Positions 16,449-63,459 of a stretch of 64,000 bases of DNA are shown here, piece after piece. Each line of letters opens with the position of its first letter. Within the stretch, counting starts at the first letter, position 1. The stretch comes from Limonium bicolor (lineage: Eukaryota > Streptophyta > Magnoliopsida > Caryophyllales > Plumbaginaceae), in assembly GCA_023374045.1 (NCBI GenBank), contig CM041777.1:464037827-464101826 (forward strand), given 5' to 3'. Made by a program: the position numbers and the translations under genes. The notes under the pieces were generated by a model. That model ran no database searches. It saw only the letters and a list, made by a program, of their open reading frames with translations, and had not been told where the DNA came from.

Positions 16449-16826
16449 CCCGACCGAACTTGCAAGTCCGGTCGCAAGTCCGGTCCAAGTCAGTAAGCTA
16501 CCGACCGACCTTGCAAGTCCGGTCCCAAGGTCGGTCCATTCCAGTAAGTTTCTTTCGTGAAAATTTTAGCCCGACCGACCTTGCAAGTCTGGTCGCAAGG
16601 TCAGTCCATTCCAGTAGCTTGCATTACGGGAATTTTTCTGGCCGACCGGACTTGCAAGTCCGGTCGCAAGTCCGGTCCATTCCAGAAGGTTTCAGACGGG
16701 AGAATTTTCTGGTCCGACCGAACTTGCATGTCCGGTCGCAAGTGGTCGATTCCAGAAGGTTTCCCGTCTTTGTAAATCTGGGCTCGACCGAACTTGCAAG
16801 TCCGGTCGCAAGTCGGTCTGGCCCAG
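16449..16826. repeat. Palindromic GACCGG tandem array (solo LTR)
   Basis: There are six units at about 70-bp spacing. Each has an arm like GACCGGACTTGC facing GCAAGTCCGGTC, followed by CATTCCAGTA and an AT-rich spacer. It is the counterpart of 54752-55076. Confidence 0.88.
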
Positions 16827-38159: not shown

Positions 38160-38162
38160 TTT

Positions 38163-39781
38163 TGCAGACGTTATAAAGTGAGTGGTTAAACTGGTGTAAA
38201 ATTAAAAGAAAAGAAATTAAAACTCAAATTAAACGTCGGGCTGCAAACAAATCCCGGTCGCAGTAGTATAGTGAAAATGTAAGCAACCGGATGTCGAACC
38301 GTGGGACTAATATACATATAATAGTTCCTAAGCGTGTCACAGGAGGGGGGATTAATTGACTTGTAAAATAAAAAAGAAAAGATAAAATAAACTAAGTTGA
38401 CAGACAAATAAAATGGAACTCTGGGTCAGGTTAATATGATCTGATTAACTATGCTATCTCTACTGGTTTAATTATAATTGTTTGGCAAAATTCCTCTTAT
38501 TATCTTAAGGACTAAATCATAGACTCATAAGAACTCGTTACCAGAAAATGCTTGGTCTAATCAAGGTTCAAGCACCTCACATGTAACGGACGGTTTAGTT
38601 ATCAGGAATTATATGCATCTGAAAATACTAACTCATTAAATCATAATAAAGCTTTCTCCAGATTTACGGCTTAATCAACCTATCTATTTATCACCTGGTC
38701 TGATCAAAATAGACTTAGCAAGCAATTTAATAAATTCGCGAGATTTATTAGAAAGGCGAGAGATAACTTTAAGCGTAACAAACTGCATATAAATAAAACC
38801 AGTAAATATATTGCAAAATTAATACAGATACATAATAACTATTCCCAGAGTAAACGTAAACTAGCCTAACATATTAAATAGATAGATAGAGACGAGAGTA
38901 ATAGAAATCATCCGTAATCACTCCGTCTCACTCTGCTATTTTGTGTACGTAGGGCTAGAGGTGAATTTGTGGAATGTAAAATAAATAAAATGGAGAATAC
39001 GGGAGAAGAGAAATGGGATGAATGTGTGAAGTGGTGAAGTTGGGTCGTGGATGGATTGAATGGGTGGTGGTTGAATGAAAGGAGAAGACTCGTGGGTTTT
39101 TATAGAGAAAGGAAGAGGCAAAGGCAGCAGATAAGTAACGCGTGAATTGATTGAGGCGGTGCAGCTCATTGATTGCTCATTTATTGCTTGCTTCATTGAT
39201 TGCAGGGGGACAGAGCGTGCAGAGTAGATGGATAAATTGAAGACAGTGGACGAGTTGCAGACAGTCGGCGGAGGCAAGTTGCAGACGATGACGAGCGAAG
39301 AAGAAAACTGTTAGCGCGACTGAAATTAGTCGCGTCCGCCTCTGCGTCCGCTTTAGTCAGGCGCGGACGTCTCTGTTGTCCTCTCTCGCGTCCGCTCAGC
39401 AACCTCATGCATGTCCGCCTATTTATGAGGCGGTTGCCTCATCCTCTTCTTGCAAGTCTCTTGTCCGCTTTGTGTCCTCTTGTGTGTCCTCCTGTGTTTT
39501 GGGCGGACACAAGTGAGGTACTCATGCGGACAAACTTTGACCGGCTCTAGATTCTTCGTTTGGACTCCGTTTTTCGAGCCGTCTGCGCCTATGCGTTCGT
39601 CTCTTCGTGTACTTTGCTCCTAGCTTGGTGTTTCCTCATGTTTAAATCAATAAATTTGTGAGATAATCAATAAAACATAAACTAGAGGAAAAACATAACC
39701 GAAGTGGAGAAATGAGCAAGAAAAGTGCTAATATAATAAATGAAATACACCTATAAAACATGCTCATTTGGACACTTATCA
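38163..39781 (-). repeat. Tat-like element, right (5') LTR
   Basis: A 1619-bp LTR paired with 34111-35731. The few differences include a TA-dinucleotide deletion near 38612 and a substitution near 38936. Confidence 0.93.
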
Positions 39782-45764: not shown

Positions 45765-45931
45765 GTGACCCTTCAAGATGGTTGAGAGAGAAGTCATCTT
45801 TTTTGTTAAGGCAACGTTTGATTCATGTAAAAGTTGATATTAACCATAACTAGTAACTCGAACATATACACTAACAAACAATTAATAATTAAGGTTTTCG
45901 GATTAGAACCAATAGTCAGACAAGTAACTCG
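45765..45931. other. Short unassigned flank
   Basis: This is the second GTGAC target-site copy plus about 160 bp that I do not recognise, up to the point (about 45932) where identity with the Tekay-like LTR begins. Confidence 0.4.
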
Positions 45932-46638
45932 AAAATGCTTGTTTTTGGATTTTGGAAAGATGAAAATGTTGCTCTTGAGGAGAGGATTACAATGGTGTAA
46001 TTTTTATAATTTTTGGGAGAGTGTGGAGAGTTACAAAGGAGAGAAGGTGAGTTTTGTATGTGTTTTGCTCATTCTCCATTGAAATCGCATGAGGAAGGAG
46101 AAGAGGAGAAATGAGAGTGAGGAGGGAAGTGGGTACACGTGAGAGAAGAGAATGAGAGGAGGAGAGAGAGTAGAAAGGTGAGAGTGGAGTTTTTTTGTTT
46201 TGTTTTTAGTTAGGGAGGAGTGTGAGGTGTGTGAGGGGGCCTTAAAATCGGCTAGCACACAGACCCACTTGTGGTTTTGAAATTTATTTGCAATATTGGA
46301 CACACTAGTTTGTGTTTTTTATACTTCTACCCCCACTTCCCGTTTTGACAGTTTTTTTCTAATCTCTCGTTTTATTGATTTTATTGGTCCTACAGCTTCA
46401 TTAATATTTATTAGTGATTATTTAGTTGACCAAAACTGTTACGAGTCTATTTGACCCTCTTAAGACACGTTTTCCCGGTTACCTCGAAAAACGTGCTTTA
46501 AGGTTCGGTAATGTTTTTAATCCATTTTAAGGATCCGTTTTCTTCGGGATTTGTTCCCTAATAATTATTTATTCTTAATTAAGCCTCTAAATTACTTATT
46601 AGCCTAATTAATCACTATTTTTAAATACGGGTATTTCA
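45932..46638 (-). mobile_element. Tekay-like copy 1, truncated left (3') LTR
   Basis: It matches 56222-56943 of the shared middle LTR and ends GGGTATTTCA at 46638. About 3.07 kb of the LTR is missing on the left, so the array is truncated here. Confidence 0.85.
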
Positions 46639-46640
46639 AT

Positions 46641-46652
46641 CTACCCCCCTTA
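46641..46652 (-). other. Tekay-like copy 1 polypurine tract
   Basis: The minus strand reads AAGGGGGGTAGA, 2 nt from the LTR end at 46638. A second copy of the motif is at 47027-47046. Confidence 0.82.
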
Positions 46653-47026
46653 AGAAACTTTGCCCTCAAAGTTGCTCAAGGTTAATAGTTTGATTATTCT
46701 ACTCATTAGGCAAACCAATTGTCCTAATGCATCTTTCTACACCTATGAGGTGTTTACTTCATTCCACATTGCAAGCATACACAATTCAAGTACAATACGC
46801 AATTCACAATTCACATACGCAATCCATCATTCTCATTCGTACCATACCACAATACACAATACACCATTACCATTCACAATACACATTACACCAATACACC
46901 ATACATTGTACATACACATCATTCACTACTCATTACACACACATACACATTCATACCAAGTCCACTTGCACTACATGTGCCATACAAAATGCAATGCTTA
47001 CCCCGAAGCAATGCAAAAGCAAAAGG

Positions 47027-47046
47027 GCTCTACCCCCCTTAAAAGG
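47027..47046 (-). other. Secondary polypurine-like tract (copy 1)
   Basis: The minus strand reads CCTTTTAAGGGGGGTAGAGC, 386 nt inside the LTR-adjacent tract, just past the end of the coding region. It is shared with both LARDs. Confidence 0.6.
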
Positions 47047-47099
47047 GGTACGACCCGTACCCGTATATTACATGCTAGACTAACTAGTCTATGAATAAC

Positions 47100-47290
47100 T
47101 GTGGGTACTTAGCCTTCATGGCATCTTCTAGTTCCCATGCGTGCTTCTTCGACTCATGGGTTAGACCATAGGCCTTCACCATTCGTATCGACTTATGGCG
47201 AGTGTCTCTGGTCTTCCTATCCAAGATTCTCACTGGGGTTTCAACATATCTCATGTTCGGCTCAATGGAAAGTCTCTGGGCTCAACACAT
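47100..47290 (-). CDS. Chromodomain-like C-terminus of integrase, copy 1 (frameshifted)
   Basis: This is the end of the pol polyprotein. In pieces it encodes a RHKSIRMVK segment and a WELEDAM segment, the hallmark of the integrase chromodomain tail of Tekay-type chromoviruses, which directs integration to particular chromatin. Copy 2 (57293-57598) reads the same region in one frame with VKVLWSNHDVEEATWELED. Here the frame is broken by small indels around the middle. Confidence 0.6.
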
Positions 47291-48403
47291 GAGAAGGATC
47301 AGCCATATACTTCTTGAGTTGTGACACATGAAATACATCATGGACACGTCCCAAGTCCTCAGGTAATGCAACCTGTAGGCTACTGAACCAACTCTTTCGG
47401 TGATAGTGTACGGCCCTACAAACTTCGGGCTTAGCTTGCCCTTCTGACCAAAACGGAAGACACCCTTCATAGGTGAAACGCGCAAGAACACTTGGTCGCC
47501 CACGGCGAACTCAAGGTCGCGTCGTCTCACATCCGCATAGGATTTCTGTCTATCTTGGGCTGCCTTCATGTTAGCTCGGATTTGTTGCACTTCGGCTTGT
47601 ACTTGCTCAAGGTATTCCGGTCCTATTATGACCGCTTCACTTGACTCATCCCAACACAAGGGTGTACGGCAAGGTCTACCGTATAGAGCTTGGAAAGGCG
47701 ACATCTTAATCGAGGCGTGATAACTATTATTATACGAGAACTCGATAAGATGAAGCTTATCTAACCAACTCCCCTGAAAGTCCAAGGCACATGCCCGAAG
47801 CATGTCCTCCAGTGTCTGGATGGTCCTTTCTGTCTGACCGTCGGTCTGAGGATGGAAGGCGGTACTCAACTTCAATTCTGTACCCAACGCTTCCCTTGTA
47901 GCTCTCCAGTATCTCGAAAGAAATCTGGTGTCGCGGTCAGATACTATGGTCTTAGGGACTCCGTGGTGTCTGATAATCTCCTTATCAAAAAGCTCAGCTA
48001 GCTTTACTACCTTCCAGGTGTCCTTCATCGGTATGAATCGGGCAACCTTGGTAAGGCGATCTACTACAACCCAGATCATGTTGAGTCCTCCCCTAGCAGG
48101 TGGGAGTCCTACAACAAAATCCATGGAGATATCATGAAATTTCCACTCCGGAATTGGCATTGATTGTACCATTCCGCCCGGTCTACGTGTTCAAATTTAC
48201 CTTCTGCATGTTAAGCATCTATGCACAAATTCTGTCACATCTGACTTCATTCCAGACCACCAGAAGTACCTCTTCATGTCTTTGTACATCTTGGAGGCTC
48301 CCGGATGGACTGATAATGTAGAACTATGTGACTCTCGCAGGATGCGATCCCTTAGCTCTGCATTGCTTCGGGGGACGCATAGCCTGCCATTCAACCGAAT
48401 CAA
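47282..48403 (-). CDS. Integrase (zinc-binding and catalytic domains), copy 1
   Basis: Integrase joins the element cDNA to host DNA. The N-terminal HHCC zinc domain is in the frame 48197-48403 (H26, H33, C63, C66). The catalytic core and C-terminal part are in 47282-48172 (296 codons): D18 in the SMDFV segment, D79 in VSDRDTRF and E115 in DGQTERT give the D,D-35-E triad with exact spacing. [17 protein letters not shown] segment is the GPY/F module. The two frames are out of phase near 48180, and the core frame also shifts near 47375. Copy 2 covers these joins differently, so the intact product is inferable. It lies downstream of RNase H in the same polyprotein. Confidence 0.9.
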
Positions 48404-48599
48404 ACCATCTTCATGTACTTGAAGTCATACTTTTCTTTTCAAATGTACCATTTTCGATCTTTTGTCTGATTTCGGTTAGGTAAGGGTCGCTCAACTGAGC
48501 ATCTCGCACCTCGTCAACCAAGCTAGAAGAAGCGAGTAGCGAATGGAGCGAGTGTGCTCGACGGCTCAGGGCGTCGGCTACACATTAGCCTTCCCTTCC

Positions 48600-48992
48600 T
48601 TATACTGCAGATTGATGTCGTAGTCTGAGAGAACTCCATCCATCTTCTTGTCTCAAGTTGAGTTCTTTCTGAGTGAATACATACTGTAAGCTCTTATGAT
48701 CGGAGTAGATGGTGATGCTTACCCCATAGAGATAGTGTCGCCATATCTTCAAGGCGAAGACAATGGCTCCTAACTCTAAGTCGTGAGTCGGGTAATTCTC
48801 CTCATGTTTCTTCAGCTGGCGGGAGGCATAAGCAACAACCTTGCCATGCTGCATGAGTACGCATCCCATTCCTTTGCCTGATGCATCACAGTATACCTCA
48901 AATCCCTCTGTGCCCTCTGGAAGAGTAAGGATGGGCGCTGAGGTCAATGAGTCTTTAAGGCTCTGAATGATACTTCGCACTCGTCTGTCCAT
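48600..48992 (-). CDS. RNase H domain, copy 1
   Basis: This degrades the RNA of the RNA-DNA hybrid during reverse transcription. The frame shows [10 protein letters not shown] (D36), the [11 protein letters not shown] segment with its catalytic Glu (E73) and [12 protein letters not shown] (D98), the conserved acidic residues of Ty3/gypsy RNase H. It is connected to the reverse transcriptase frame by a shift near 48965, where copy 1 lacks one A present in copy 2, and is broken again near 48640. Confidence 0.9.
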
Positions 48993-49843
48993 ACAAACGG
49001 TGCATCCTTTTTCATCAATGTAGTCATGGGCTTAGCGACTTTTGAGAAGTCCTTTACGAATCTCCGGTAGTAACCGGCTAGACCAAGAAAGCTCCGAATG
49101 TCGGTAACAGTCTTGGGTCTAGGCCATGATCGTACAACTTCTATTTTAGAAGGGTCAACTGAGATACCTGCGCTCGAGATGACATGTCCAAGGAATGATA
49201 CCTGATCAAGCCAAAACTCGCATTTGGAGAACTTCGCATAAAGCTGGTTCTCGCGCAGTGTCTCAAGCACTTTCCTCAAGTGAATTTCATGTTCCTCTGG
49301 TGATTTAGAATATACAAGGATGTCGTCGATGAAGACCACAACCGAAGTGTCCAACTGCTCACTGAATAAACGATTCATGAGGTCCATGAATTTTGCCGGT
49401 GCGTTTGACAAACCGAATGGCATCACTGTGAATTCGTAGTGGCCATATCTGGTACGGAATGCCGTTTTCTCGATGTCTTGCTCTTTGATTGCAATCTGAT
49501 GATACCCAGAACGGAGGTCAATCTTGGAAAAGACCGATGCTCCTTTCAACTGGTCAAATAGGTCGTCGATGCGTGGCAATGGGTATTTGTTTTTGACTGT
49601 GACCGCATTCAGCTCGCGGTAGTCAATACAAAGGCGGAGACTACCGTCCTTCTTCTTCACGAAGAGGACCGGTGCTCCCCAGGGTGATACGCTCGGGCGT
49701 ATAAACCCTTTGTCTAGAAGATCTCTCAATTGTTCTTTCAGTTCAGTCATTTCAGCAGGTGCCATGCGGTACGGTGCCCTAGCAATGGGACCGGTACCTG
49801 GCAATAAATCAATCTCAAATTCCACTGCTCTCGGTGGTGGCAT
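48944..49843 (-). CDS. Reverse transcriptase, copy 1
   Basis: A 299-codon frame contains the complete Ty3/gypsy reverse transcriptase core: [19 protein letters not shown], then [11 protein letters not shown] with catalytic D109, the [10 protein letters not shown] segment and the active site [10 protein letters not shown] (D173, D174). The connection to RNase H begins with [13 protein letters not shown]. It converts the genomic RNA to cDNA in the Gag particle. This is the longest open pol segment in the window. It is preceded by a linker and protease in another frame and followed by RNase H after a one-base shift. Confidence 0.95.
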
Positions 49844-49884
49844 GCCGGGTAGCTCCTTAGGGAATACATCGGGATACTCAGATA

Positions 49885-50536
49885 CTATCGGTACATCATC
49901 ACTGAACTCTGGATCTCTCTCCAGGTCTTGTACATAAACAGATACACTTCGTGGCCCTTTCTGAGCTCCCGGTACATAGCCATAGCAGATATAAGGGTGG
50001 TCGAAGGCTCTCTCGGTCTCTGGCGGTAAGATACGGTAACCCCAGAAGGACTCTTGAGCAGCAGTCGATGCTCGGCGCAGAGGATTCTACCCTTGTGCCG
50101 CTCCAACCAATTCATTCCAATGATTAGGTCGAATCCCAATCCATTGAATTCGATGAAGGAAATGGGAAACGCCTCCTTTTTAATTTCGATGGTGGCTGAT
50201 TGGTAGTATTTGGTACACTTTACTCGCTCCTTCGATGGGAGAGTAACCATGAATTCGGTATCTCATCCGCATCTAGCTTCAACCTCTTCACGAAAGATGG
50301 TGATACGAAGGTGTGAGAGGCGCCGGAGTCGAATACACATTGGCATCAATGCCATTTACTGGGAAGGTTCCCGTTAGAATGGTGCCGCTTCTGCCGGCTT
50401 GTGCTTCGGTGAGGATGCTCAGGTTACCTTCGGTACCGAGTCCACAACCTATTGGATTCACAATTGGATAAGTATTGATGGTGGACACAAGTGGAATTAA
50501 ATCAACACTGCTCTTTATTGATAAACCAACCATCAT
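49885..50536 (-). CDS. Aspartic protease, copy 1 (frameshifted)
   Basis: This cleaves the Gag-Pol polyprotein. Two frames are involved: 50288-50536 starts [10 protein letters not shown] and carries the N-terminal half, and 49885-50250 carries the second half with the flap-proximal [15 protein letters not shown]. The catalytic [10 protein letters not shown] segment is disrupted in copy 1 by loss of one base near 50333 but is intact in copy 2 (60404-60817). The region from 50449 downward is in frame with gag exon 3 if the intervening ~1.03 kb is spliced out. Confidence 0.85.
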
Positions 50537-51475
50537 ACATGTCGTGTCTCTAATACACGTTACTAATAGATTACATGATACTATGAATTTAATACTTCCT
50601 AAAGGTAAGGTTCAGGCGTCCTGGTTTCATGTGTGTGGCATTGATTATTGCCGGCGGTGCCGTATTCAACTTGATCTTGTTGATCCCGTGATACAGCATC
50701 CGTGAGTTTCCACCCATGATGAGGACATCTCCTGATCTCAATACCAATTTCTCTGCGAGGTCCACACGCTTCTGCTCGCTATACAGGAATATGGCGTCAT
50801 CACCAATGGACCAAGACACTACGGGCACTCCTTGTTCAAGAGATTCCGCTGTCTCGTCCTTGTCTTGGTGTAACCCAAGTCGTCCTTCTTTTTCATAGAA
50901 GTTGACGATACAAAGGTCCGCTTCAAGTGCGGGGATTGGTTCAGGTTCACATTGCTGTGCAAGTTCTACTGCTTGAGTGATGAGGGTCTGAAACTCTGGT
51001 GGTATTGTCGGTGGCGTCGCTCCATCGTGTTGTCGTGTCTCCTGGTATGTCTTGGTATAAGGATTCCAGTCCTTTCCCAAGCACATCATCTTCAGCTTCA
51101 TCTTCGCTCCACCGGGGAATTCGGGTGTGTAAAATCCACCTTGACCCGTTCCTAGCTCGTTGCATCGTCGAATAATTGAGATTTGCGCTTCGGGTGTCAG
51201 GTATCCCCTTAATAAGATCATACCTGGGCGGATGACCTGACACTGTTTGTTGGTGTAGTCGGTTGGTGATGTCGATCTCTCTTGATTCAAGGTTACCGGT
51301 ATTGGGTAACAGATACTAAAGCTTCCTATGGTACAATTTCATCTACGGTGAGTACTAGTTTTAACTACCATTTCATGTAATACACTTCAATTCATTCATT
51401 TACTCATGCATTCAATCATACAATTACTCTGCTACTAGGCATGCTATTTCAAGGATTAAAGGTTTAGGTGATTAC
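50450..51475 (-). other. Putative alternative intron containing AlkB, copy 1
   Basis: The donor AAG|GTAATC (G at 51475) follows the zinc-knuckle exon. The acceptor CCAATAG|GTTGTGG (exon from 50449) precedes the protease. Exon 3 ends after the first base of a codon and the protease exon resumes at the second base, so removing 1026 nt joins gag to protease in frame. A nearer acceptor, ACCGTAG|ATG at 51343, would place the AlkB ATG at the exon edge but out of the gag frame. The sites are seen; their use is inferred. Confidence 0.5.
50589..51342 (-). CDS. AlkB-family Fe(II)/2-oxoglutarate dioxygenase, copy 1
   Basis: This ORF lies between gag and protease, in the same sense as the element. The frame 50589-51290 is open for 233 codons; the probable start is the ATG at 51342, from which copy 2 is open, while copy 1 has a small indel near the start. 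Counted from the 51290 start, HQDKDE supplies Fe ligands H141 and D143, LYHGI supplies H201, and RLNLTFR supplies the 2-oxoglutarate arginines R225 and R231. N130 and Y132 fit the NxY position. The nucleotide-recognition region has KMMCLGKDWNPYTKTY. The protein ends two residues after the last motif, as in stand-alone AlkB proteins. AlkB enzymes remove methyl groups from nucleic acids by oxidation. The CLGxxW...Y pattern suggests a plant ALKBH1-type ancestor (from recalled motifs). The substrate is unknown. Confidence 0.93.
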
Positions 51476-51808
51476 CTTGGCCGGATTTCGAACCGGGCCC
51501 ATCGCGGTCAATCACATGCAGAACAGGCTGCCTCTGAGGTGCGCCCTCTGAGGGCCCCGGGATCCCTGTCCCTGAGGTGCCTGCTGGGCCGGTGCATCGC
51601 CAGATGCCACCTCCTTGCCCTCTCTGCTTATAGTTCTGGAAGTTTCCTTTGGGCTTCCATTCTCCGGGCATGTTAGCTGGTGTCCCAGCTTCTGGCAGTT
51701 GTAGCACTTGATCTCCCTCCCCAATCCTTACCAGGGTGGTCCTGGTTGCACTTCTGCACACATAGGTGCGGCCGTCGGAGAAGGTTTTGGCGGCTCCGGA
51801 GCTAGAAC
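51476..51808 (-). CDS. gag exon 3: zinc knuckles, copy 1
   Basis: This encodes the nucleic-acid-binding end of Gag. Two CCHC knuckles are expected, the CRKCNQDHPGKDC type and the CYNCQKLGH...C type; both are clear in copy 2. In copy 1 one or more deleted bases shift the frame between and after them (frames 51456-51761 and 51512-51724 each read part). After the knuckles comes a Q/G/P-rich tail ending VIDRDGPGSKSGQ. The exon starts after acceptor CCTCAG at 51809 and ends at donor 51475. Confidence 0.8.
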
Positions 51809-51887
51809 CTGAGGTTAGAGGGTTAGCACATGTGTGCGTGGGTATACTAGAAATGATACTTATATGAAAATTGGAAGTAGAATTTAC
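51809..51887 (-). other. Putative gag intron 2, copy 1
   Basis: This 79-nt interval has donor G|GTAAATTC and acceptor CTAACCTCAG|GTT. Removing it joins a Lys-rich gag segment (...SHPPK) to GSSSGAAKTFSDGR and the knuckles in frame (phase 1). It is present in both copies with the same ends. Confidence 0.65.
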
Positions 51888-52158
51888 CCTTAGGAGGGTG
51901 TGATCTCAGTGGCTTAGCTGCCACCGGTGCAGAATAACCAAGCTGAAGGATCTCAGCTGGTTTGCCCTGCTCAGCATGGGCACTGCTCTCACTTGGGGAC
52001 TTCTTCTGAGAAAAGAAGTTCCCTTTCTTCTTCTTCCAGCTTTTACCCTGGTTCTGCTCCTCGGTGCTGGTATTTTTGTTATTGGCCTTGCGCTTCAGCG
52101 CGGTTTCTCATCCCTAATGGCAAGTGATCTCAACGCGGGAGGCCGCGTGATAACACTC
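51888..52158 (-). CDS. gag exon 2, copy 1
   Basis: This is the middle of Gag. It begins ECYHAASRVEITC, a typical end of a retrotransposon Gag helical domain, then becomes basic (KRKANN, SWKKKKG) and low-complexity. The first part reads cleanly in copy 2, the following part in copy 1; small indels break each. It lies between two putative introns and has no ATG of its own, so it is readable only by splicing or as a non-coding gap. Confidence 0.7.
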
Positions 52159-52271
52159 CTGAAGTTTCAGGTATTAGCCGGGATGAGTTTAAGAAAGAAT
52201 AAGGAAAAGATTCAAGGAATTCAAGGAATTGAAATGAATTGAATTGATACTAAGGGTCAACCGATATTTAC
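52159..52271 (-). other. Putative gag intron 1, copy 1
   Basis: This 113-nt interval has donor CAG|GTAAATATC and acceptor AACTTCAG|GAG. Read through, gag stops four codons after the donor. Spliced, TSLQ joins ECYHAA in phase 0. The same 113 nt interval is in copy 2 (62461-62573). Confidence 0.68.
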
Positions 52272-52929
52272 CTGAAGGGAGGTAAATCTGGTATAGCCCA
52301 TACCGTACCGAAGGCGATGGCTCAGACCGCCATAGAAGCGATCGACCAACACCTGGCCGGTGTATCCAAGATCGGGGAGGAGACGGAGAATGGAGGTGAA
52401 GGTGCGGTAGTACTCATCCACAGACATCTTGTCTGTCATCTTTAAGGCGTCTAGCTCTAGCCTTCTTCTTTTTACATGCTCCGGATAGTACTTGGATCGG
52501 AGGAGAGATGCGAAGGAATCCCAATCGAAGGTGGGGTCGCTGACGTGCTCGTGCTTCACCAGTTTCCACCAATCCATGGCCGCATCCTTCAAGTAGTAGG
52601 CGGCTACTCTGACTCGAACTCCAGCAGGAGCTTCGAGTGTTTCAAAAGCGGTCTCCATTTCGGAGATGTATGCTTCTAGCTTAGCCGGATCACTCTCGCC
52701 CCTAAAGCAAGGAGGGCGGAGTTCCGCTACAGCTTTGACCCAGTTAGCTTCTCTGGGTGGAGGGGGAGGGTTGGTCCCGTTGAGTTGTTGGTTTGCTGGT
52801 TTGTTGTACAGCTTGTATAACTTGTGGTAGCATCTGTGCTACCGTGGCGGCGACGATCTCAGCTATCGTCTGCGCGCCGGTTCCATCTGAGGCTTCGCCT
52901 CTAGGTCGGCCTCGGCCTCTTCCTGACAT
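52272..52929 (-). CDS. gag exon 1 (retrotransposon Gag domain), copy 1
   Basis: This is the structural protein of the virus-like particle. ATG at 52929 starts MSGRGRGRPRGEAS, a basic, AT-hook-like N-terminus. The core shows KDAAMDWWKLVKHE, FASLLRSKYYP, MSVDEYYRTF and ILRLLPDLG, the conserved Trp and Phe/Tyr pattern of the Ty3 Gag domain. A one-base loss near 52790 separates the N-terminal frame (52744-52929) from the rest (52257-52658). It is the first ORF after the primer site, with a 210-nt leader. Confidence 0.88.
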
Positions 52930-53123
52930 CTGAATGTTTAACAGTTACATTAGGCTCCGCAAGAATGACTCAAAGGTCTTGGAATTAAAACATGGTATCG
53001 TTCTTAAGAACGTCAAGGGTATCCGTTTGTAACAACGGTAGTTCCTAGTTAGGTTTCTAAGTATCCGTCTTATGACGGTTGAAATCCTAACTCGGTAATC
53101 TCCTATGCTCGGTACTTTAGGAC

Positions 53124-53151
53124 ATCAGAGCGTAACTACGCTCTGATACCA
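53124..53151 (-). promoter_or_regulatory. Tekay-like copy 1 primer-binding site within a hairpin
   Basis: The TGGTATCAGAGC complement is at 53140-53151 on the minus strand, 5 nt from the LTR. Positions 53124-53147 form an 11-bp perfect stem, ATCAGAGCGTA/TACGCTCTGAT, with a 2-nt loop. The stem differs from the LARD version at paired positions. Confidence 0.9.
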
Positions 53152-53632
53152 CTTTTTGTAACACCCCAACCGTTAATCCTATGCTTACCGTCTAATCGTC
53201 CTGTTAATTCAATGAGTTCGCAGCGGAAGAATACTACTTACTACTTCGGCGGGGGTGAAACAATGCCGCTAACCGCCCATACGGCTAGCAAGGCTACTAA
53301 TACTTACAGTGACGGTCTGATGGCCAATAGATACCGAGCTACTAAAACAAACTTACCAATTACAAATATTCACTACCAAAGGATTACCGAGTATTCGAAG
53401 TATTCATTACAACCTTCCAAGTTTACCCAAAAGAATGAGTATACCTACTCATCTATACCAATCTCCTTCACAATATCCAAAAAGGTGTACCCCATGGTAC
53501 ACCGGCTATTCAAAATCAGCCATGTACTACTAGTACACCATCTCAAATTCATGTTTACATCCAAAAAGAAGAAAAAGAAATAAGTTGATCTTCACATCTT
53601 CATCATCTCGCACCTGCGTGTAGTAAAATGGT

Positions 53633-53712
53633 GCCCCAAGGGGCTCAGCAAATTGCTGCGCATAAACTCCGCATATACCGATTGCTAGCAAGGGTACGCC
53701 GACTAATTGGCG
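53633..53712 (-). promoter_or_regulatory. Conserved LTR stem-loop block (Tekay middle LTR)
   Basis: The minus strand has CGCCAATTAGTCGGCG, a middle stem, then CAGCAATTTGCTGAGCCCC and TTGGGGC, giving twin hairpins. The counterpart in the right LTR is cut by the window end (from about 63955). Confidence 0.65.
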
Positions 53713-54659
53713 ACCGCTAAACATGCTTGTTCATTACTCATACATACATGCTTTACACAATCATACATACATTAATACATCATTCACTTCAAGGCAACAA
53801 TACAATAGAGTTCACAATACTTACCTTCACAAGGTTAGCCAAATTGTGCATCCGGGTTAATCGGAATGCATATTACTCTTTTACTCATTACTTACTTCTT
53901 CTTACTTACAATTACTTACTTCCTTTTTACTTTACTTACTCATTCTTACTTACTTACTTATACTCAAGTCAAGTCGTCGGGACCTCCGGCCTTGGGGACT
54001 ACTCCGTCCCACATCCGGGATTTACTTGACTCACTAATCCGGGATGCTACCCACTTAAGGGATTTGGGCCGCGGACCAGTTTAAGAGTCAGGAATTGGAG
54101 CCAACCTCTCGTGACTCCGCATCCTCACGCGTGGCCGAAACTATATCGGACTTCTACTCATTCCAATTTATTTACCAATTTAAGTTAGGAGTTAGCTTGT
54201 TAGGAACAAGTTAGAAGTCCAATAATAAATAGCAATAATCGGTCACAGTACAATACAACATACATACACACATTCATATCATCCATACGTTTCATGAATT
54301 ATACAAACTAAGATTTAAGAAATACACATCATACAACACTACATATTCACAAGTAAGCATATTAACTCCGATTCGTGCATTTATCTTTATTGGTGATCAA
54401 TTAGCACACAACACACAAATCAGAGTAGCCATGATAGCATTCGGGGCATGAGGAATTCATACCGTTCACCGTTGTACGTACTTCCAAACGTCCTTCCGGT
54501 GTCACAAATCAAATCCTATTATACATACAATTAAATGATTAATAACTATCATTACTTAACACATACTCACTATGTCCTTATACTTCTTACATTGCTTTAC
54601 TTACTTACTTTTCCTTTACTTAGGTTTTACTTCCTTACTTAACTTTGGCATGCTTTCAT

Positions 54660-54735
54660 CCATGTACATATACTATATGTATGGGTATACATATACATAA
54701 TATATACAATTACTATTTAAATTAAAATAATTTTT
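54660..54735 (-). promoter_or_regulatory. AT-rich tract, candidate promoter of the Tekay-like LTR
   Basis: TATATA-type motifs and a T-run lie immediately downstream, in element orientation, of the palindromic array. The arrangement suggests array plus TATA as a U3 promoter; this is inference. Confidence 0.38.
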
Positions 54736-54751
54736 TTTTTTTTTTTTGTCA

Positions 54752-55076
54752 GGACCGGACTTGCGACCGACCTTGGGCAAGTCCGGTCCATTCCAGTAGG
54801 TTTCTTCGGGAAAATTTTTGGTCCGACCGGACTTGCATGTCCGGTCGCAAGTCCGGTCGATTCCAGTAACATTCTGCCGGGAAATTTTTCTGCTCGACCG
54901 GACTTGCAAGTCCGGTCGCAAGTCCGGTCGATTCCAGTAGCATACCGAGGGGAAATTTTTCTGCTCGACCGGACTTGCAGGTCCGGTCGCAAGTCCGGTC
55001 GATTCCAGTGCTTATTGACGGGAAAATTTTCTGCTCGACCGGACTTGCAGGTCCGGTCGCAAGTCCGGTCGATCCC
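54752..55076. repeat. Palindromic GACCGG tandem array (Tekay middle LTR)
   Basis: Five units at about 72-bp spacing. The dyad arms are GACCGGACTTGC and GCAAGTCCGGTC, and the spacer has ATTCCAGTA and GGGAAAATTTTT. Frames running through the array on both strands are repeat artefacts. Confidence 0.9.
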
Positions 55077-56945
55077 ATGTTTACATTTTACTTTCTGTTT
55101 TCAGTCCTCTCTTTCACCCATTACTTCCCCATTGTTCCTACACTTATTCCCACATGTTATAACACTAATTAAACCTCCTAATACACCCTAGTTCATTTCC
55201 TAATTCCTTACACAATTTTATACTCATTCACTCATATAATTTCCCAAGTTTCACTCAACACTTGCACTAGTTATGTCCTAGTTGTGTTATGCTACAGATT
55301 TTAGCATTTACACTCCCCTTCTATATCCCCTCTTCTATTGTCATTCTAACACTCCTAATGCATCTAGAATCCATTACCTAGCTCTCTCCACTTACCCTCT
55401 ATTTTCCTTAATTCAAAATCTGTTACAACACTCTTCATTCACCTAGTTTAAATTCACTAAGTGTTCTAATCCTAGGTAAATTTTGCCATAGTCTCTCTTG
55501 TATTTCTATGCACTCACCACATGGTCTAGTTCATATTTTAACCCTTATCTCACCTGTTACAATAACATCAAAACACAAGCTCCCATACACAACTACTAAT
55601 ACCAAATACACTACAAAATTTCCTGCACATTACTCCTCATTTCCCAATCTGTTTAACAAGTTTTAAAATGTTCTTTAAGGTTTAAAACCTTGTTTTCTCT
55701 TTACACATTACACTACTACCACATTGCCATTTTCATTACCAAATTCAAACTTATAAAAATCTGTTACATACATATATACTCAAGACTACACAATGAGAGT
55801 TCTCACCTTGTTTTCCCTTCTAGGTTTCTTTCTTTTCTTTCTTTCCCCTTCCTCTCTCTCTCGGTTTTGGTACTTCAATCCACTAACACTACAACCATTC
55901 ACATACATATCTCAATACAACATACTAACCCTAACCATTCCTTAAAGCTTAAATGTACATTTTAGGGTTTAGGAATTTATATTACCTTCCACTAGAGCAA
56001 GTGCTGTTTGGAGTGGCTCAACAACAAAATTCCAACTCCACCAATAAGCCAAAATCGGCTAGAACAAGAGGAAGAACAAGGGTTTAGTTCTAGATTTTCG
56101 TTTTGCCCATAAGGGGTAGAAAAAGATGGAGTTTTCGAAATATCTTTACCTTAGAAGAACAAGGAGAACAAGGGCCTTCCAATGGTGGTGTTGAAGCTTC
56201 AAATGGGGAATACCCTCAAAATCGAAAATGCTTGTTTTTGGATTTTGGAAAGATGAAAATGTTGCTCTTGAGGAGAGGATTACAATGGTGTAATTTTTAT
56301 AATTTTTGGGAGAGTGTGGAGGGAGTTACAAAGGAGAGAAGGTGGGTTTTGTATGTGTTTTGCTCATTCTCCATTGAAATCGCATGAGGAAGGAGAAGAG
56401 GAGAAATGAGAGTGAGGAGGGAAGTGGGTACACGTGAGAGAAGAGAATGAGAGGAGGAGAGAGAGTAGAAAGGTGAGAGTGAGAGTTTTTAATTGTTTTG
56501 TTTTTAGTTAATAAGGGAGGAGTGTGAGGTGTGTGAGGGGGGCCTTAAAATCGGCTAGCACACAGACCCACTTGTGGGTTTTGAAATTTATTTGCAATAT
56601 TGGACACACTAGTTTGTGTTATTTATACTTCTACCCCACAACTTCCCGTTTTTGACAGTTTTTCTAATCTCTGTTTTATTGATTTTATTGGTCCTACAGC
56701 TTCATTAATATTTATTAGTGATTATTTAGTTGACCAAAACTGTTACGAGTCTATTTGACCCGCTTAAAGACACGTTTTCCCGGTTACCTCGAAAAACGTG
56801 CTTTAAGGTTCGGTAATGTTTTTAATCCATTTTAAGGATCGTTTTCTTCGGGATTTGTTCCCTAATAATTATTTATTCTTAACTAAGCCTCTAAATTACT
56901 TATTAGCCTAATTAATCACTATTTTTAAATACGGGGTATTTCAAT

Positions 56946-56956
56946 CTACCCCCCTT
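56946..56956 (-). other. Tekay-like copy 2 polypurine tract
   Basis: The minus strand reads AAGGGGGGTAG, 2 nt from the middle LTR end at 56943. Confidence 0.82.
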
Positions 56957-57292
56957 AAGAAACTTTGCCCTAAAGTTGCTCAAGGTTAATAGTTTGATTA
57001 TCTACTCATTAGCAAACCAATTGTCCTAATGCATCTTTCTACACCTATGAGGTGTTTACTTCTTCCACATTGCAAGCATACACAATTCAGTACAATACGC
57101 AATTCACAATTCACATACGCAATCCATCTTCTCATTCGTACCAACCACAATACACAAATACACCATTACCATTCACAATAACACATTACACCAATACACC
57201 ATTCATTGTACATACCCATTCACTACTCATTACACACACATACACATTCATACCAAGTCCACTTGCACTACATGTGCCATAAAATGCAATGC

Positions 57293-57598
57293 TTACCCCG
57301 AAGCAATGCAAAAGCAAAGGGCTCCCCCCTTTAAAAAGGGTACGACCCGTACCCGTATATTACATGCTAGACTAACTAGTCTATGAATAATGTGGGTACT
57401 TAGCCTCATGGCATCTTCTAGTTCCCATGTCGCTTCTTCGACATCATGGTTAGACCATAGGACCTTCACCATTCGTATCGACTTATGGCGAGTGTCTCTG
57501 GTCTTCCTATCCAAGATTCTCACTGGGGTTTCAACATATCTCATGTTCGGCTCAATGGATAGTCTCTCGGGCTCCAACACATGAGAAGGATCAGCCAA
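57293..57598 (-). CDS. Chromodomain-like C-terminus of integrase, copy 2
   Basis: A single frame reads [15 protein letters not shown], then VKVLWSNHDVEEATWELED. Aromatic and acidic residues at these positions are the signature of the chromodomain-like tail of plant chromovirus integrases. Known family members bind modified histones and guide insertion into heterochromatin. The upstream part (YVETPVRI) joins the integrase C-terminal module after a frame break near 57598. Confidence 0.8.
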   Translation of the reverse strand: MADPSHVLEPERLSIEPNMRYVETPVRILDRKTRDTRHKSIRMVKVLWSNHDVEEATWELEDAMRLSTHIIHRLVSLACNIRVRVVPFLKGGALCFCIASG

Positions 57599-58686
57599 TA
57601 CTTCTTGAGTTGTGACACATGAAATACATCATGGACACGTCCAAGTCCTCAGGTAATGCCAACCTGTAGGCTACTGAACCAACTCTTTCGGTGATAGTGT
57701 ACGGCCCTACAAACTTCGGGCTTAGCTTGCCCTTCTGACCAAAACGGAAGACACCCTTCATAGGTGAAACGCGCAAGAACACTTGGTCGCCCACGGCGAA
57801 CTCAGGTCGCGTCGTCTCACATCCGCATAGGATTTCTGTCTATCTTGGGCTGCCTTCATGTTAGCTCGGATTGTTGCACTTCGGCTTGTACTTGCTCAAG
57901 GTATTCCGGTCCTATTATGACCGCTTCGCTTGACTCATCCCAACACAAGGGTGTACGGCAAGGTCTACCGTATAGAGCTTGGAAAGGCGACATCTTAAGG
58001 CGTGATAACTATTATTATACGAGAACTCGATAAGATGAAGCTTATCTAACCAACTCCCCTGAAAGTCCAAGGCACATGCCCGAAGCATGTCCTCCAGTGT
58101 CTGGATGGTCCTTTCTGTCTGACCGTCGGTTGAGGATGGAAGGCGGTACTCAACTTCAATTCTGTACCCAGCGCTTCCCTTGTAGCTCTCCAGTATCTCG
58201 AAAGAAATCTGGTGTCGCGGTCAGATACTATGGTCTTAGGGACTCCGTGTCTGATAATCTCCTTATCAAAAAGCTCAGCTAGCTTTACTACCTTCCAGGT
58301 GTCCTTCATCGGTATGAATCGGGCAACCTTGGTAAGGCGATCAACTACAACCCAGATCATGTTGAGTCCTCCCCTAGCAGGTGGGAGTCCTACAACAAAA
58401 TCCATGGAGATATCATGAAATTTCCACTCCGGAATTGGCATTGATTGTACCATTCCGCCCGGTCTACGGTGTTCGAATTTACCTTCTGGCATGTTAAGCA
58501 TCTCAATACAAATTCTGTCACATCTGACTTCATTCCAGACCACCAGAAGTACCTCTTCATGTCTTTGTACATCTTGGAGGCTCCCGGATGGACTGATAAT
58601 GTAGAACTATGTGACTCTCGCAGGATGCGATCCCTTAGCTCAGCATTGCTTCGGGGGACGCATAGCCTGCCATTCAACCGAATCAA
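57591..58686 (-). CDS. Integrase, copy 2 (frameshifted)
   Basis: Three frames cover the protein: 58390-58686 (HHCC zinc domain, ending [11 protein letters not shown]), 58046-58543 (core, with [18 protein letters not shown] and then a shift before the Glu segment) and 57591-57794 ([16 protein letters not shown]). The core frame shift near 58130 is a lost base relative to copy 1, and one His codon of the RHHGVPK segment is also missing near 58250. Together with copy 1 a complete integrase is implied. Confidence 0.85.
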
Positions 58687-58861
58687 ACCATCTTCATGTA
58701 GCTTGAAGTCATACTTTTCTTTTCAAATGTACCATTTTCGATCTTTTGTCTGATTTCGGTTAGGTAAGGGTCGCTCAACTGAGCATCTCGCACCTCGTCA
58801 ACCAAGCTAGAAGAAGCGAGTAGCGAATGGAGCGAGTGTGCTCGACGGCTCAGGGCGTCGG

Positions 58862-59233
58862 CTACAACGTTAGCCTTCCCTTCCTTATACTGCAGATTGA
58901 TGTCATAGTCTGAGAGAAATTCCATCCATCTTCTTGTCTCAAGTTGAGTTCTTTCTGAGTGAATACATACTGTAAGCTCTTATGATCGGAGTAGATGGTG
59001 ATGCTTACCCCATAGAGATAGTGTCGCCATATCTTCAAGGCGAAGACAATGGCTCCTAACTCTAAGTCGTGAGTCGGGTAATTCTCCTCATGTTTCTTCA
59101 GCTGGCGGGAGGCATAAGCAACAACCTTGCCATGCTGCATGAGTACGCATCCCATTCCTTTGCCTGATGCATCACAGTATACCTCAAATCCCTCTGTGCC
59201 CTCTGGAAGAGTAAGGATGGGCGCTGAGGTCAA
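58862..59233 (-). CDS. RNase H domain, copy 2
   Basis: It has the same catalytic segments as copy 1 ([33 protein letters not shown]). Downstream, 58683-58925 reads [28 protein letters not shown], the conserved end of gypsy RNase H. Here that end is open, while copy 1 is broken. Confidence 0.9.
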
Positions 59234-60125
59234 TGAGTCTTTAAGGCTCTGAAATGATACTTCGCACTCGTCTGTCCATACAAACGGTGCATCTTTTTCA
59301 TCAATGTAGTCATGGGCTTAGCGACTTTTGAGAAGTCCTTTACGAATCTCCGGTAGTAACCGGCTAGACCAAGAAAGCTCCGAATGTCGGTAACAGTCTT
59401 AGGTCTAGGCCATGATCGTACAGCTTCTATCTTTGAAGGGTCAACTGAGATACCTGCGCTCGAGATGACATGTCCAAGGAATGATACCTGATCTAGCCAG
59501 AACTCGCATTTGGAGAACTTCGCATACAGCTGGTTCTCGCGCAGTGTCTCAAGCACTTTCCTCAAGTGAATTTCATGTTCCTCTGGTGATTTGGAATATA
59601 CAAGGATGTCGTCGATGAAGACCACAACCGAAGTGTCCAACTGCTCACTGAATAAACGGTTCATGAGGTCCATGAATTTTGCCGGTGCGTTTGACAAACC
59701 GAATGGCATCACTGTGAATTCGTAGTGGCCATATCTGGTACGGAATGCCGTTTTCTCAATGTCTTGCTCTTTGATTGCAATTGATGTACCCAGAACGGAG
59801 GTCAATCTTGGAAAAGACCGATGCTCCTTTCAACTGGTCAAATAGGTCGTCGATGCGTGGCAGTGGGTATTTGTTTTTGACTGTGACCGCATTCAGCTCG
59901 CGGTAGTCAATACAAAGGCGGAGACTACCGTCCTTCTTCTTCACGAAGAGGACCGGTGCTCCCCAGGGTGATACGCTCGGGCGTATAAACCCTTTGTCTA
60001 GTAAATCACAATTGCTCTTTCAATTCAGTCATTTCAGCAGGTGCCATGCGGTACGGTGCCCTAGCAATGGGACCGGTACCTGGTAATAAATCAATCTCAA
60101 ATTCCACTGCTCTCGGTGGTGGCAT
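59230..60125 (-). CDS. Reverse transcriptase, copy 2 (frameshifted)
   Basis: It is readable in three overlapping frames: the N-terminal lead-in at the end of 60006-60419, [11 protein letters not shown] in 59756-59944, and the active-site [10 protein letters not shown] half in 59230-59805. Breaks near 60005, 59785 and 59290 are 1-3 base losses relative to copy 1. Catalytic residues are all present. Confidence 0.9.
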
Positions 60126-60817
60126 GCCGGGTAGCTCCTTAGGGAATACATCGGGATACTCAGATACTATCGGTACATCGTCACTGAACTCTGGATCCTC
60201 TCCAGGTCTTGTACATAACACAGATACTTCTTGGCCCTTTCTGAGCTCCCGGTACATAGCCATAGCAGATATAAGGGTGGTCGAAGGCTCTCTCGGTCTC
60301 TGGCGGTAAGATACGGTAACCCCAGAAGGACTCTTGAGCAGCAGTCGATGCTCGGCGCAGAGGATTCTACCCTTGTGCCGCTCCAACCAATTCATTCCAA
60401 TGATTAGGTCGAATCCCAATCCATTGAATTCGATGAAGGAAATGGGAAACGCCTCCTTTTTAATTTCGATGGTGGCTGATTGGTAGTATTTGGTACACTT
60501 ACTCGCTCCTTCGATGGGAGAGTAACCATGAAATTCGGTATCTCATCCGCATCTAGCTTCAACCTCTTCACGAAAGATGGTGATACGAAGGTGTGAGAGG
60601 CGCCGGAGTCGAATAACACATTGGCATCAATGCCATTTACTGGGAAGGTTCCCGTTAGAATGGTGCCGCTTCTGCCGGCTTGTGCTTCGGTGAGGATGCT
60701 CAGGTTACCTTCGGTACCGAGTCCACAACCTATTGGATTCACAATTGGATAAGTATTGATGGTGGACACAAGTGGAATTAAATCAACACTGCTCTTTATT
60801 GATAAACCAACCATCAT
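60006..60817 (-). CDS. Aspartic protease and linker, copy 2
   Basis: The frame 60404-60817 contains [18 protein letters not shown], an intact DSGA active site, and 60006-60419 continues with [15 protein letters not shown] and the protease-RT linker. The nominal ATG ATG at 60817 lies after the AlkB stop; splicing to the acceptor at 60730 would instead join it to gag. The frame joint near 60410 is a small indel. Confidence 0.88.
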
Positions 60818-61759
60818 ACATGTCGTGTCTCTAATACACGTTACTAATAGATTACATGATACTATGAATTTAATACTTCCTAAAGGTAAGGTTCAGGCGT
60901 CCTGGTTTCATGTGTGTGGCATTGATTATTGCCGGCGGTGCCGTATTCAACTTGATCTTGTTGATCCCGTGATACAGCATCCGTGAGTTTCCACCCATGA
61001 TGAGGACATCTCCTGATCTCAATACCAATTTCTCTGCGAGGTCCACACGCTTCTGCTCGCTATACAGGAATATGGCGTCATCACCAATGGACCAAGACAC
61101 TACGGGCACTCCTTGTTCAAGAGATTCCGCTGTCTCGTCCTTGTCTTGGTGTAACCCAAGTCGTCCTTCTTTTCATAGAAGTTGACGACAAAGGTCCGCT
61201 TCAAGTGCGGGGATTGGTTCAGGTTCACATTGCTGTGCAATTCTACTGCTTGAGTGATGAGGGTCTGAAATCTGGGGTATTGTCGGTGGCGTCGCTCCAT
61301 CGTGTGTCGTGTCTCCTGGTATGTCTTGGTATAAGGATTCCAGTCCTTTCCCAAGCACATCATCTTCAGCTTCATCTTCGCTCCACCGGGGAATTCGGGT
61401 GTGTAAAATCCACCTTGACCCGTTCCTAGCTCGTTGCATCGTCGAATAATTGAGATTTGCGCTTCGGGTGTCAGGTATCCCCTTAATAAGATCATACCTG
61501 GTCGGATGACCTGACACTGATTGTTGGTGTAGTCGCGGTTGGTGATGTCGATCTCTTCTTGATTCGAGGTTACCGGTATTGGGTAACAAATACTAAAGCT
61601 TCCTATGGGTACAATTTGCATCTACGGTGAGTACTAGTTTTAACTACTCCATTTCATGCGTAATACACACTTCAATTCATTCATTTACTCATGCATTCAA
61701 TCATACAATTACTCTGCTACTAGGCATGCTATTTCAAGGATTAAAGTTTAGGTGATTAC
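60730..61759 (-). other. Putative alternative intron containing AlkB, copy 2
   Basis: The donor (G at 61759) and acceptor (exon from 60729) are the same as in copy 1. From the gag frame, exon 3 ends on codon base 1, and from the protease frame 60729 is codon base 2, so removing 1030 nt is in frame here as well. Confidence 0.5.
60870..61621 (-). CDS. AlkB-family Fe(II)/2-oxoglutarate dioxygenase, copy 2 (frameshifted)
   Basis: ATG at 61621 begins MQIVPIGSFS, immediately after an in-frame TAG, so this is the natural start. The ORF reads through RPGMILLRGYLTPEAQ and KMMCLGKDWNPYTKTY. Small losses near 61305 and 61250 and a lost T in a T-run near 61172 break the frame, and the HQD segment is reached only in another frame. 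The C-terminal part with YHGI and RLNLTFR is in 60870-61109. The same position and orientation as in copy 1 show that the gene is an integral part of the element and not a chance neighbour. Confidence 0.9.
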
Positions 61760-62104
61760 CTTGGCCGGATTTCGAACCGGGCCCATCTCGGTCAATCACA
61801 TGCAGAACAGGCTGCCTCTGAGGTGCGCCTCTCTGAGGGCCCCGGGATCCCTGTCCCTGAGGTGCCTGCTGGGCCGGTGCATCGCCAGATGCCACCTCCT
61901 TGCCCTCTCTCTGCTTGTAGTTCTGGAAGTTCCCCTTCTGCTTTCCACTCTCCGGGCACTTGTTAGCTGTGTGTCCCAGCTTCTGGCAGTTGTAGCACTT
62001 GATCTCCCTCCCGTAGCAATCCTTACCAGGGTGGTCCTGGTTGCACTTTCTGCACACATAGGTGCGGCCGTCGGAGAAGGTTTTGGCGGCTCCGGAGCTA
62101 GAAC
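61760..62104 (-). CDS. gag exon 3: zinc knuckles, copy 2
   Basis: This is readable in one frame (61734-62057 for most of it). Two knuckles are seen: C-X2-C-X3-H-X4-C (CRKCNQDHPGKDC) and C-X2-C-X4-H-X4-C (CYNCQKLGHTANKC). The first has one residue fewer than the classic CCHC spacing. A Q/G/P-rich tail follows. Unspliced, the frame stops about eight codons after the donor at 61759. Confidence 0.9.
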
Positions 62105-62185
62105 CTGAGGTTAGAGGGTTAGCACATGTGTGCGTGGGTATACTAGAAATGATTTATATGAATACGAATGGGAAGTAGAATTTAC
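62105..62185 (-). other. Putative gag intron 2, copy 2
   Basis: An 81-nt interval with the same GTAAATTC donor and CTAACCTCAG acceptor as copy 1; the interior varies, the ends do not. Confidence 0.65.
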
Positions 62186-62460
62186 CCTTAGGAGGGTGTG
62201 ATCTCAGTGGCTTAGCTGCCACCGGTGCAGAATAACCAAGCTGAAGGATCTCAGCTGGTTTGCCCTGCTCAGCATGGGCACTGCTCTCACTTGGGGACTT
62301 CTTCTGAGAAAGAAGTTCCCTTTCTTCTTCTTCTTCCAGCTTTTACCCTGGTTCTGCTCCTCGGTGCTGGTATTTTGTTATTGGCCTTGCGCTTCAGCGC
62401 GGTTTCTTCATCCCTCAGTTGGCAAGTGATCTCAACGCGGGAGGCCGCGTGATAACACTC
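62186..62460 (-). CDS. gag exon 2, copy 2
   Basis: The first 28 codons read ECYHAASRVEITCQLRDEE and KRKANN in the frame set by exon 1, which is strong support for the splice junction. One lost A near 62372 then shifts the frame relative to copy 1. Confidence 0.72.
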
Positions 62461-62573
62461 CTGAAGTTTCAGGTATTAGCCGGGATGAGGTTTAAGAAAG
62501 AATAAGGAAAAGATTCAAGGAATCAAGGAATTGAAATGAATTGAATTGATACTAAGGGTCAACCGATATTTAC
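62461..62573 (-). other. Putative gag intron 1, copy 2
   Basis: 113 nt, with the same splice-site sequences and phase as copy 1. Confidence 0.68.
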
Positions 62574-63233
62574 CTGAAGGGAGGTAAATCTGGTATAGCC
62601 CATACCGTACCGAAGGCGATGGCTCAGACCGCCATAGAAGCGATCGACCAACACCTGGCCGGTGTATCCAAGATCGGGGAGGAGACGGAGAATGGAGGTG
62701 AAGGTGCGGTAGTACTCATCCACAGACATCTTGTCTGTCATCTTTAAGGCGTCTAGCTCTAGCCTTTTCTTCGTTTTTACATGCTCCGGATAGTACTTGG
62801 ATCGGAGGAGAGATGCGAAGGAATCCCAATCGAAGGTGGGGTCGCTGACGTGCTCGTGCTTCACCAGTTTCCACCAATCCATGGCCGCATCCTTCAAGTA
62901 GTAGGCGGCTACCTGACTCGAACTCCAGCAGGAGCTTCGAGTGTTTCAAAAGCAGTCTCCATCTCGGAGATGTATGCTTCTAGCTTAGCCGGATCACTCT
63001 CGCCCCTAAAGCAAGGAGGGCGGAGTTCCGCTACAGCTTTCACCCAATTGGCTTCTCTGGGAGGAGGGGGAGGGATTGGCCCCGTTGGTTGTGGTTCTGT
63101 GGGTTTGTTGTACAGCTTGTATAACTTGTGGTAGCATCTGTGCTACCGTGGCGGCGACGATCTCAGCTATCGTCTGCGCGCCGGTTCCATCTGAGGCTTC
63201 GCCTCTAGGTCGGCCTCGGCCTCTTCCTGACAT
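62574..63233 (-). CDS. gag exon 1, copy 2 (frameshifted)
   Basis: ATG at 63233 gives the same MSGRGRGRPRG start. The Gag core (KDAAMDWWKLVKHE, FASLLRSKYYP) is in 62559-62897. Frame breaks near 63075 (an extra C in a C-rich run) and near 62912 differ from the copy 1 break, so an intact exon is implied. Confidence 0.87.
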
Positions 63234-63426
63234 CTGAATGTTTAACAGTTACATTAGGCTCCGCAAGAATGACTCAAAGGTCTTGGAATTAAAACATGGT
63301 ATCGTTTTAAGAACGTCAAGGGTATCCGTTTGTAACAACGGTAGTTCCTAGTTAGGTTTCTAAGTATCCGTCTTATGACGATTGAAATCCTAACTCGGTA
63401 ATCTCCTATGCTCGGTACTTTAGGAC

Positions 63427-63454
63427 ATCAGAGCGTAACTACGCTCTGATACCA
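63427..63454 (-). promoter_or_regulatory. Tekay-like copy 2 primer-binding site within a hairpin
   Basis: The complement of TGGTATCAGAGC is at 63443-63454, with the same 11-bp stem (63427-63450) as copy 1. Confidence 0.9.
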
Positions 63455-63459
63455 CTTTT

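Follow-up and report, generated by a model that had tools for sequence, protein, structure and literature searches.

The closest described system is Gypsy_Pa_2799 of the orchid Phalaenopsis, an Ogre/Tat element with a paALKBH5-like ORF2 that was published in 2022 (PMC9289625). In the accessible part of that article, the element is 25.5 kb long, belongs to the Tat family as the sister group of Ogre, and has a tRNA-Arg primer binding site. Its gag and pol form a single ORF, and its enzyme is encoded by a separate ORF2 of 565 amino acids, is of the ALKBH5/9/10 type, and has m6A activity in vitro. No such AlkB domain was found in the other genomes screened there. The article also cites AlkB domains in plant RNA viruses of the Alphaflexiviridae, Betaflexiviridae, and Closteroviridae. 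Plant LTR elements generally lack introns, and the accessible text of a 2025 review gives Ogre and EVADE as exceptions (PMC12786077). In rice, loss of ALKBH1 is reported to raise 6mA in R-loop regions, and ALKBH1 to impair PRC2 binding (PMC10469495).

The Limonium bicolor element resembles Gypsy_Pa_2799, as far as the orchid element is described there, in being a high-copy Ty3/gypsy element with a complete AlkB-type 2OG-Fe(II) dioxygenase whose cofactor residues are kept. However, it does not have the orchid combination of an ALKBH5-type 2-ODD, a separate ORF, and gag-pol in one ORF. Its putative enzyme is of the ALKBH1B/C/D type, its AlkB lies inside a predicted gag-protease intron, and its gag comprises several predicted exons. 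AlkB in Ty3/gypsy elements is thus already known from orchids, while the enzyme class, the position, and the predicted expression route differ here. The preliminary description of this DNA was not aware of any described retrotransposon with AlkB at this position; that no retrotransposon with AlkB is described is not supported, given the orchid Ogre/Tat elements, whose AlkB is of another class and in a separate ORF (PMC9289625). Among the papers listed in a literature search that mostly left subscription papers outside, the orchid element was the sole description found of AlkB in an LTR retrotransposon, and none was seen to place an enzyme of the ALKBH1 type between gag and protease. Spliced plant LTR elements of the Ogre/EVADE type are similar in that splicing balances Gag and Pol, which in the Limonium element is predicted. 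They have one intron or a short-GAG isoform, whereas the Limonium element has three predicted introns up to AlkB and a predicted alternative exon that codes for an enzyme, and other families of its lineage have one more intron before the protease. The plant viruses with AlkB, likened here by description and not by sequence, are likewise mobile RNA-based parasites with a captured AlkB, but they are RNA viruses and the Limonium element is a retroelement.

The window, meaning the whole analysed stretch of 64,000 nucleotides, contains the element on the minus strand, to which all features below belong. The 5′ LTR (53157–56943), delimited by LTR ends and self-alignment, is common to the element and its tandem copy. 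The primer binding site TGGTATCAGAGC (53140–53151, by pattern match) is followed by gag exon 1, which encodes the capsid (52272–52838; PF03732, E 2.3e-15; PF19259, E 1.3e-11; the domain matches span 52257–52838). We take this primer binding site to be of the initiator tRNA-Met type, in contrast to the tRNA-Arg site of the orchid element. The protease exon (49885–50448) is frame-broken in the window copy, and PF08284 is found here, at 49885–50262, and in L002. The reverse transcriptase frame (48944–50086; PF00078, E 2.1e-38), the single RNase H region seen in the Pfam search (48600–49031; PF17917, PF17919), and the integrase core with SH3_Tf2-1 (47282–48190; PF00665 below cut-off, PF24626 at E 9.2e-14) follow. 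For the C-terminal chromodomain expected of a Tekay-like chromovirus, a Pfam search gave no match at 47087–47269, and SH3_Tf2-1 is present in the element. An incomplete 3′ LTR (45926–46638) is 96.4% identical to the 5′ LTR over 729 columns. Gag, protease, reverse transcriptase, RNase H, and integrase thus flank AlkB in element order and common orientation, and together with LTRs, primer binding site, and polypurine tract they identify a Ty3/gypsy element.

Self-alignment reveals a tandem duplication, with 45926–53677 and 56219–64000 being 97% identical. The LTR copies at 45926–46638 and 56219–56943 differ by only 6 mismatches but by 13 gap openings over 729 columns, so some frame breaks among the copies may be assembly errors. 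Within the LTR, 54742–55077 contains units that recur both directly and inverted, and CCGGACTTGC is seen in them. Elsewhere in the window, 14711–18766 is LTR-like and 67–73% identical to the LTR of the AlkB element in two aligned parts; a search of the window found no AlkB or reverse transcriptase match of that element there. A direct repeat of 1.6 kb (34110–35731 and 38162–39781, 99.6% identical) may represent the two LTRs of a recently inserted element.

The complete AlkB-type frame has 249 amino acids at 50589–51338, in the orientation of gag-pol. It matches PF13532 over the full profile (194 of 194 positions, E 5.7e-45), and this whole-domain match with HxD...H and RxxxxxR places the frame in that family. 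The preliminary description had reported an AlkB dioxygenase with HQD, a distal His, and RLNLTFR between zinc knuckles and protease, and all three motifs are present in the translation. That AlkB sits between the gag and protease of a Ty3/gypsy element is confirmed; the zinc knuckle itself is scrambled in the window copy and intact in L021 (PF00098, E 2.4e-6). The span given earlier, 50589–51342, has to be corrected. The predicted introns and the exon-like nature of AlkB were missed: the AlkB exon with its stop codon, a 2OG-Fe(II) dioxygenase, would occupy 50589–51325, and 51326–51342 would be the tail of an intron. Both AlkB copies noticed earlier exist, but the second one, in the tandem copy of the element (60873–61606), is split by tblastn into two frames, so only the first is complete. 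AlkB is intact in the window copy, in which gag exon 2, the zinc knuckle, and the protease frame are all damaged. The seven cofactor positions examined are unchanged in all 52 intact ORFs of the AlkB-chosen set, which were picked for intact ends from 60 AlkB loci.

The ALKBH1-type kinship assumed at the outset is supported by structure and phylogeny. In the PDB sequence search the closest solved chain is rice OsALKBH1 (E 7.8e-73), followed by E. coli AlkB, and all 21 sequences at E up to 1e-3 are AlkB or ALKBH1 and not ALKBH5/9/10. A fold model from a 54-row alignment has a pLDDT of 92.9, and its best Foldseek match is OsALKBH1 (5xeg, 5xoi; TMt 0.92–0.93, 49–50% identity). A single-sequence model, with a pLDDT of 33.8, was discarded. 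The tree comprises 19 TE-type rows as one group (90/91, below the tool's star), 24 angiosperm host genes as a second (95/94), and 5 bacterial AlkB as a third. The TE rows are nearest to plant ALKBH1B/C/D as a separate group and do not fall inside the angiosperm host-gene clade, a placement in which long-branch effects are possible. Seven of the TE-type rows (P0001-4, 34, 35, 40) come from other contigs; their TE-type label is based on the tree and, for two of them, on an LG-xxDICYP start. Host ALKBH1B/C/D share with the element AlkB the whole fold and the stretch from FDIC to RLNLTFR; in contrast, they have a long N-terminal part that the TE exon lacks. The separate grouping would suggest either that the AlkB capture is old or that TE copies evolve fast. 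A host ALKBH1D gene was sought in the genome and not identified; judging from their open frames, the matches listed seem to be TE copies. Gag-AlkB proteins were sought in public data with the predicted spliced piece. None of the 120 matches listed out of 651 had a gag or zinc-knuckle Pfam domain, the top one, P0121, seems to be a host-like ALKBH1 protein in tandem form, and no named plant with such a fusion turned up among them. A scan of viral contigs gave 5 pattern matches, none of them a relative.

AlkB is abundant in the 2.92 Gb assembly. A piece of matK matches Limonium carolinianum at 96% identity across 92% of the query, which suggests a host in the Plumbaginaceae; Ranunculus, considered at first, was given up on this ground. 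The window AlkB has at least 150 places at 93–100% identity, these being the ones scored among 52,761 first-look candidates. P0002 as query finds at least 141 places that are 68–74% identical to it, and 30 loci fetched from that search are 55–61% identical to the window AlkB and form several groups in the tree. With up to 3 mismatches, a 30-mer of AlkB has 6,243 genome matches, one of gag 4,295, and one of the protease 2,186, each reversed control giving 0; the three counts are no copy ratio, since each depends on the variability of its 30-mer. Among the 90 exact gag matches listed, which cover the first 94 Mb of C1, 55 have an exact AlkB match 1.37–1.53 kb downstream. The identity of so many places, the motif matches against none for the reversed control, and the frame-specific selection described below exclude chance.

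A sample chosen by reverse transcriptase (RT) gives the same picture. It consists of 20 loci hand-picked from 108 listed RT matches, 13 of them from the first 22 rows, and 1,081 bases were fetched at the expected AlkB place of each. AlkB occurs at that place in 19 of the 20 copies, in L075 as its last third only. The exception, L064, has a flank that resembles nothing in the window, which points to unrelated DNA rather than to an empty site. AlkB is stop-free to its natural end in only 2 of the 19 copies, and the other 17 have stops or broken ends.

Parsimony substitution counts were made on 18 of the RT-chosen copies, with L075 excluded. Internal branches have N56:S78 (omega about 0.30) and terminal branches N130:S134 (omega about 0.41), with binomial P values of 7e-12 and 6e-13, respectively, if changes are independent. 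Omega is 0.21 internally and 0.17 terminally in AlkB-chosen copies, and 0.41 and 0.39 in 49 pooled copies; only the RT-chosen set has a lower value on internal branches. The AlkB-chosen samples are biased towards intact ORFs (52 of 60 loci). Their pairwise omega is 0.06–0.16 across bins of 65–100% protein identity, including 0.06–0.09 for 97 pairs that are 65–85% identical and have dS above 2; synonymous sites are saturated in pairs below 65%. In the 49 copies, the true frame has an omega of 0.42 with a third-position excess, while the two wrong frames have 1.41 and 1.63. These substitution patterns indicate that AlkB is under purifying selection. The preliminary description had held that absence of AlkB from other family members, or a dN/dS near 1 across copies, would point to a one-off passenger insertion; the RT-chosen copies contradict both. 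AlkB is no passenger: it resides in a Ty3/gypsy lineage of several families and is maintained there by selection.

Three GT-AG introns are predicted between gag and AlkB, with a further acceptor before the protease. Predicted intron 1 (52159–52271) is followed by gag exon 2 (51888–52158, frame-broken in the window copy), intron 2 (51809–51887), gag exon 3 with the zinc knuckle (51476–51808), and intron 3 (51326–51475; donor at 51475, acceptor at 51326). All seven splice dinucleotides, among them the GT donor of gag exon 1 and the GT and AG of intron 3, are retained in 30 of 30 AlkB-chosen copies, which are all close kin. The predicted frame is open in 16 of these copies for exon 2 (other frames 1 and 0), in 17 for exon 3 (other frames 6 and 0), and in 21 for the protease exon. 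Even the best frame of the introns is open in only 1, 7, and 0 of the 30, in the order of the introns. Read without introns, gag joined to AlkB is free of stops in 2 of the 30 copies; with all or any one of the introns retained, it is so in none. Among the RT-chosen copies, GT is present in 14 of 15 (4 more are gapped), and the two AG sites are present in 16 and 17 of 18, with 1 copy gapped at each. The remaining dinucleotides of intron 3 have a mean retention of 0.64, and several GT and AG inside it reach the level of the splice sites. Splice-site conservation in the window family thus appears only modestly above background.

The best evidence for splicing is exact intron loss, since reverse transcription of spliced RNA would leave such a precise loss. 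Intron 1 is exactly missing in L031. The protease linker contains one extra intron in L033, L036, L044, L053, and L057 (with CGG instead of CAG at the acceptor of L057); the window family and L031 lack this intron precisely. L031, in which both of these introns are absent, retains the AlkB exon together with its acceptor. Of 30 other-family loci, 24 could be matched at the FDI motif, and in all 24 the AlkB exon is immediately preceded by TAG. The zinc-knuckle donor is known from the window family alone, in which both acceptors after the zinc-knuckle exon, that of AlkB and that of the protease, are phase 1.

The maintained AlkB is probably an alternative, stop-bearing exon, and a Gag-AlkB fusion made by splicing would likely demethylate the RNA or single-stranded cDNA of the element itself. 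The exon would lie within the intron between gag and protease. A single donor, where the exon with the zinc knuckle ends, would join the AlkB acceptor and give Gag-AlkB, ending at the AlkB stop; the same donor would skip AlkB and join the protease acceptor in identical phase to give Gag-Pol. The splice choice would set the ratio of Gag to Gag-Pol, and an eraser tethered by the zinc knuckle would thereby be placed on the packaged genome. Candidate substrates would be RNA with m6A or m1A, or single-stranded DNA with 6mA or alkyl damage, and the ALKBH1-type kinship would favour methyl-adenine in unpaired nucleic acid. The chances are about even for the fuller picture of a splice-switched ALKBH1-type exon, in which one donor would both set the polyprotein ratio and load a particle eraser, in an old lineage with families that are 55–61% identical and an enzyme that lies outside the sampled angiosperm genes.

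Gag-AlkB-Pol could also arise with no splice choice, by a +1 frameshift at the overlap of AlkB stop and Pol or by Pol reinitiation after AlkB. In L002 and L005, the protease frame extends back, at a shift of +1, to a point 22 nt ahead of where the AlkB stop ends; in the window family it stays open back across the stop in 28 of 30 copies, which also have the Pol frame open over the following 140 bases, and in L031 it is open across the AlkB-protease gap. However, these 140 bases (50449–50588) have flat codon positions (37/35/35) and an omega of 0.87 in the Pol frame. In L032 and L034, the first 106 nt past the AlkB stop are closed in the protease frame, and in L033 and L044 this frame opens only at 268–270 nt, past a further intron; these loci have a CAG acceptor instead, and acceptors corresponding to that of the protease occur in other families. 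Such a route is rather improbable. The stretch has a mean dinucleotide retention of 0.89 in the window family, compared to 0.85 in AlkB and 0.64 in intron 3, lacks a codon pattern, and bears at its 3′ end the alternative AG acceptor for the protease; it is possibly an RNA signal for splicing or packaging and not coding. It is unlikely that AlkB is made as its own protein from its own start or by internal entry, acting in trans, as has been proposed for the orchid ORF2, with an incidental Gag fusion. The orchid precedent has a separate ORF in the accessible description (PMC9289625), and a Met in RPGMILL stands shortly before the fold core, but no Met of the window exon precedes this one, and conservation begins well upstream of it, at the acceptor (SFSICYP/FDICYP), in a phase that agrees with the gag donor in the window family.

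The predicted fusion to a zinc-knuckle capsid protein points to the particle and makes quite improbable a host-side role in which the enzyme would bind chromatin like rice ALKBH1 and counter silencing of the element instead of editing RNA or cDNA. In favour of that role, the nearest characterised relative is rice ALKBH1, whose loss raises 6mA in R-loop regions (PMC10469495). A functionless passenger gene would agree with the stops or broken ends of most RT-chosen copies, but not with the retention of AlkB in nearly all of them, nor with selection confined to the true frame and the low omega among AlkB-chosen copies; this reading is highly improbable.

With the splice-switched exon as the favoured reading, the family looks like a multi-intron LTR retrotransposon that would tie an accessory enzyme to splicing and packaging. 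With so many natural copies, the splice model could be tested by ordinary RNA sequencing. Plant Ty3/gypsy elements would then have captured AlkB twice independently, in orchids and here, and from different ALKBH classes. Such recurrent capture would be an argument that plant retrotransposons are indeed limited by methyl marks on their RNA or DNA.
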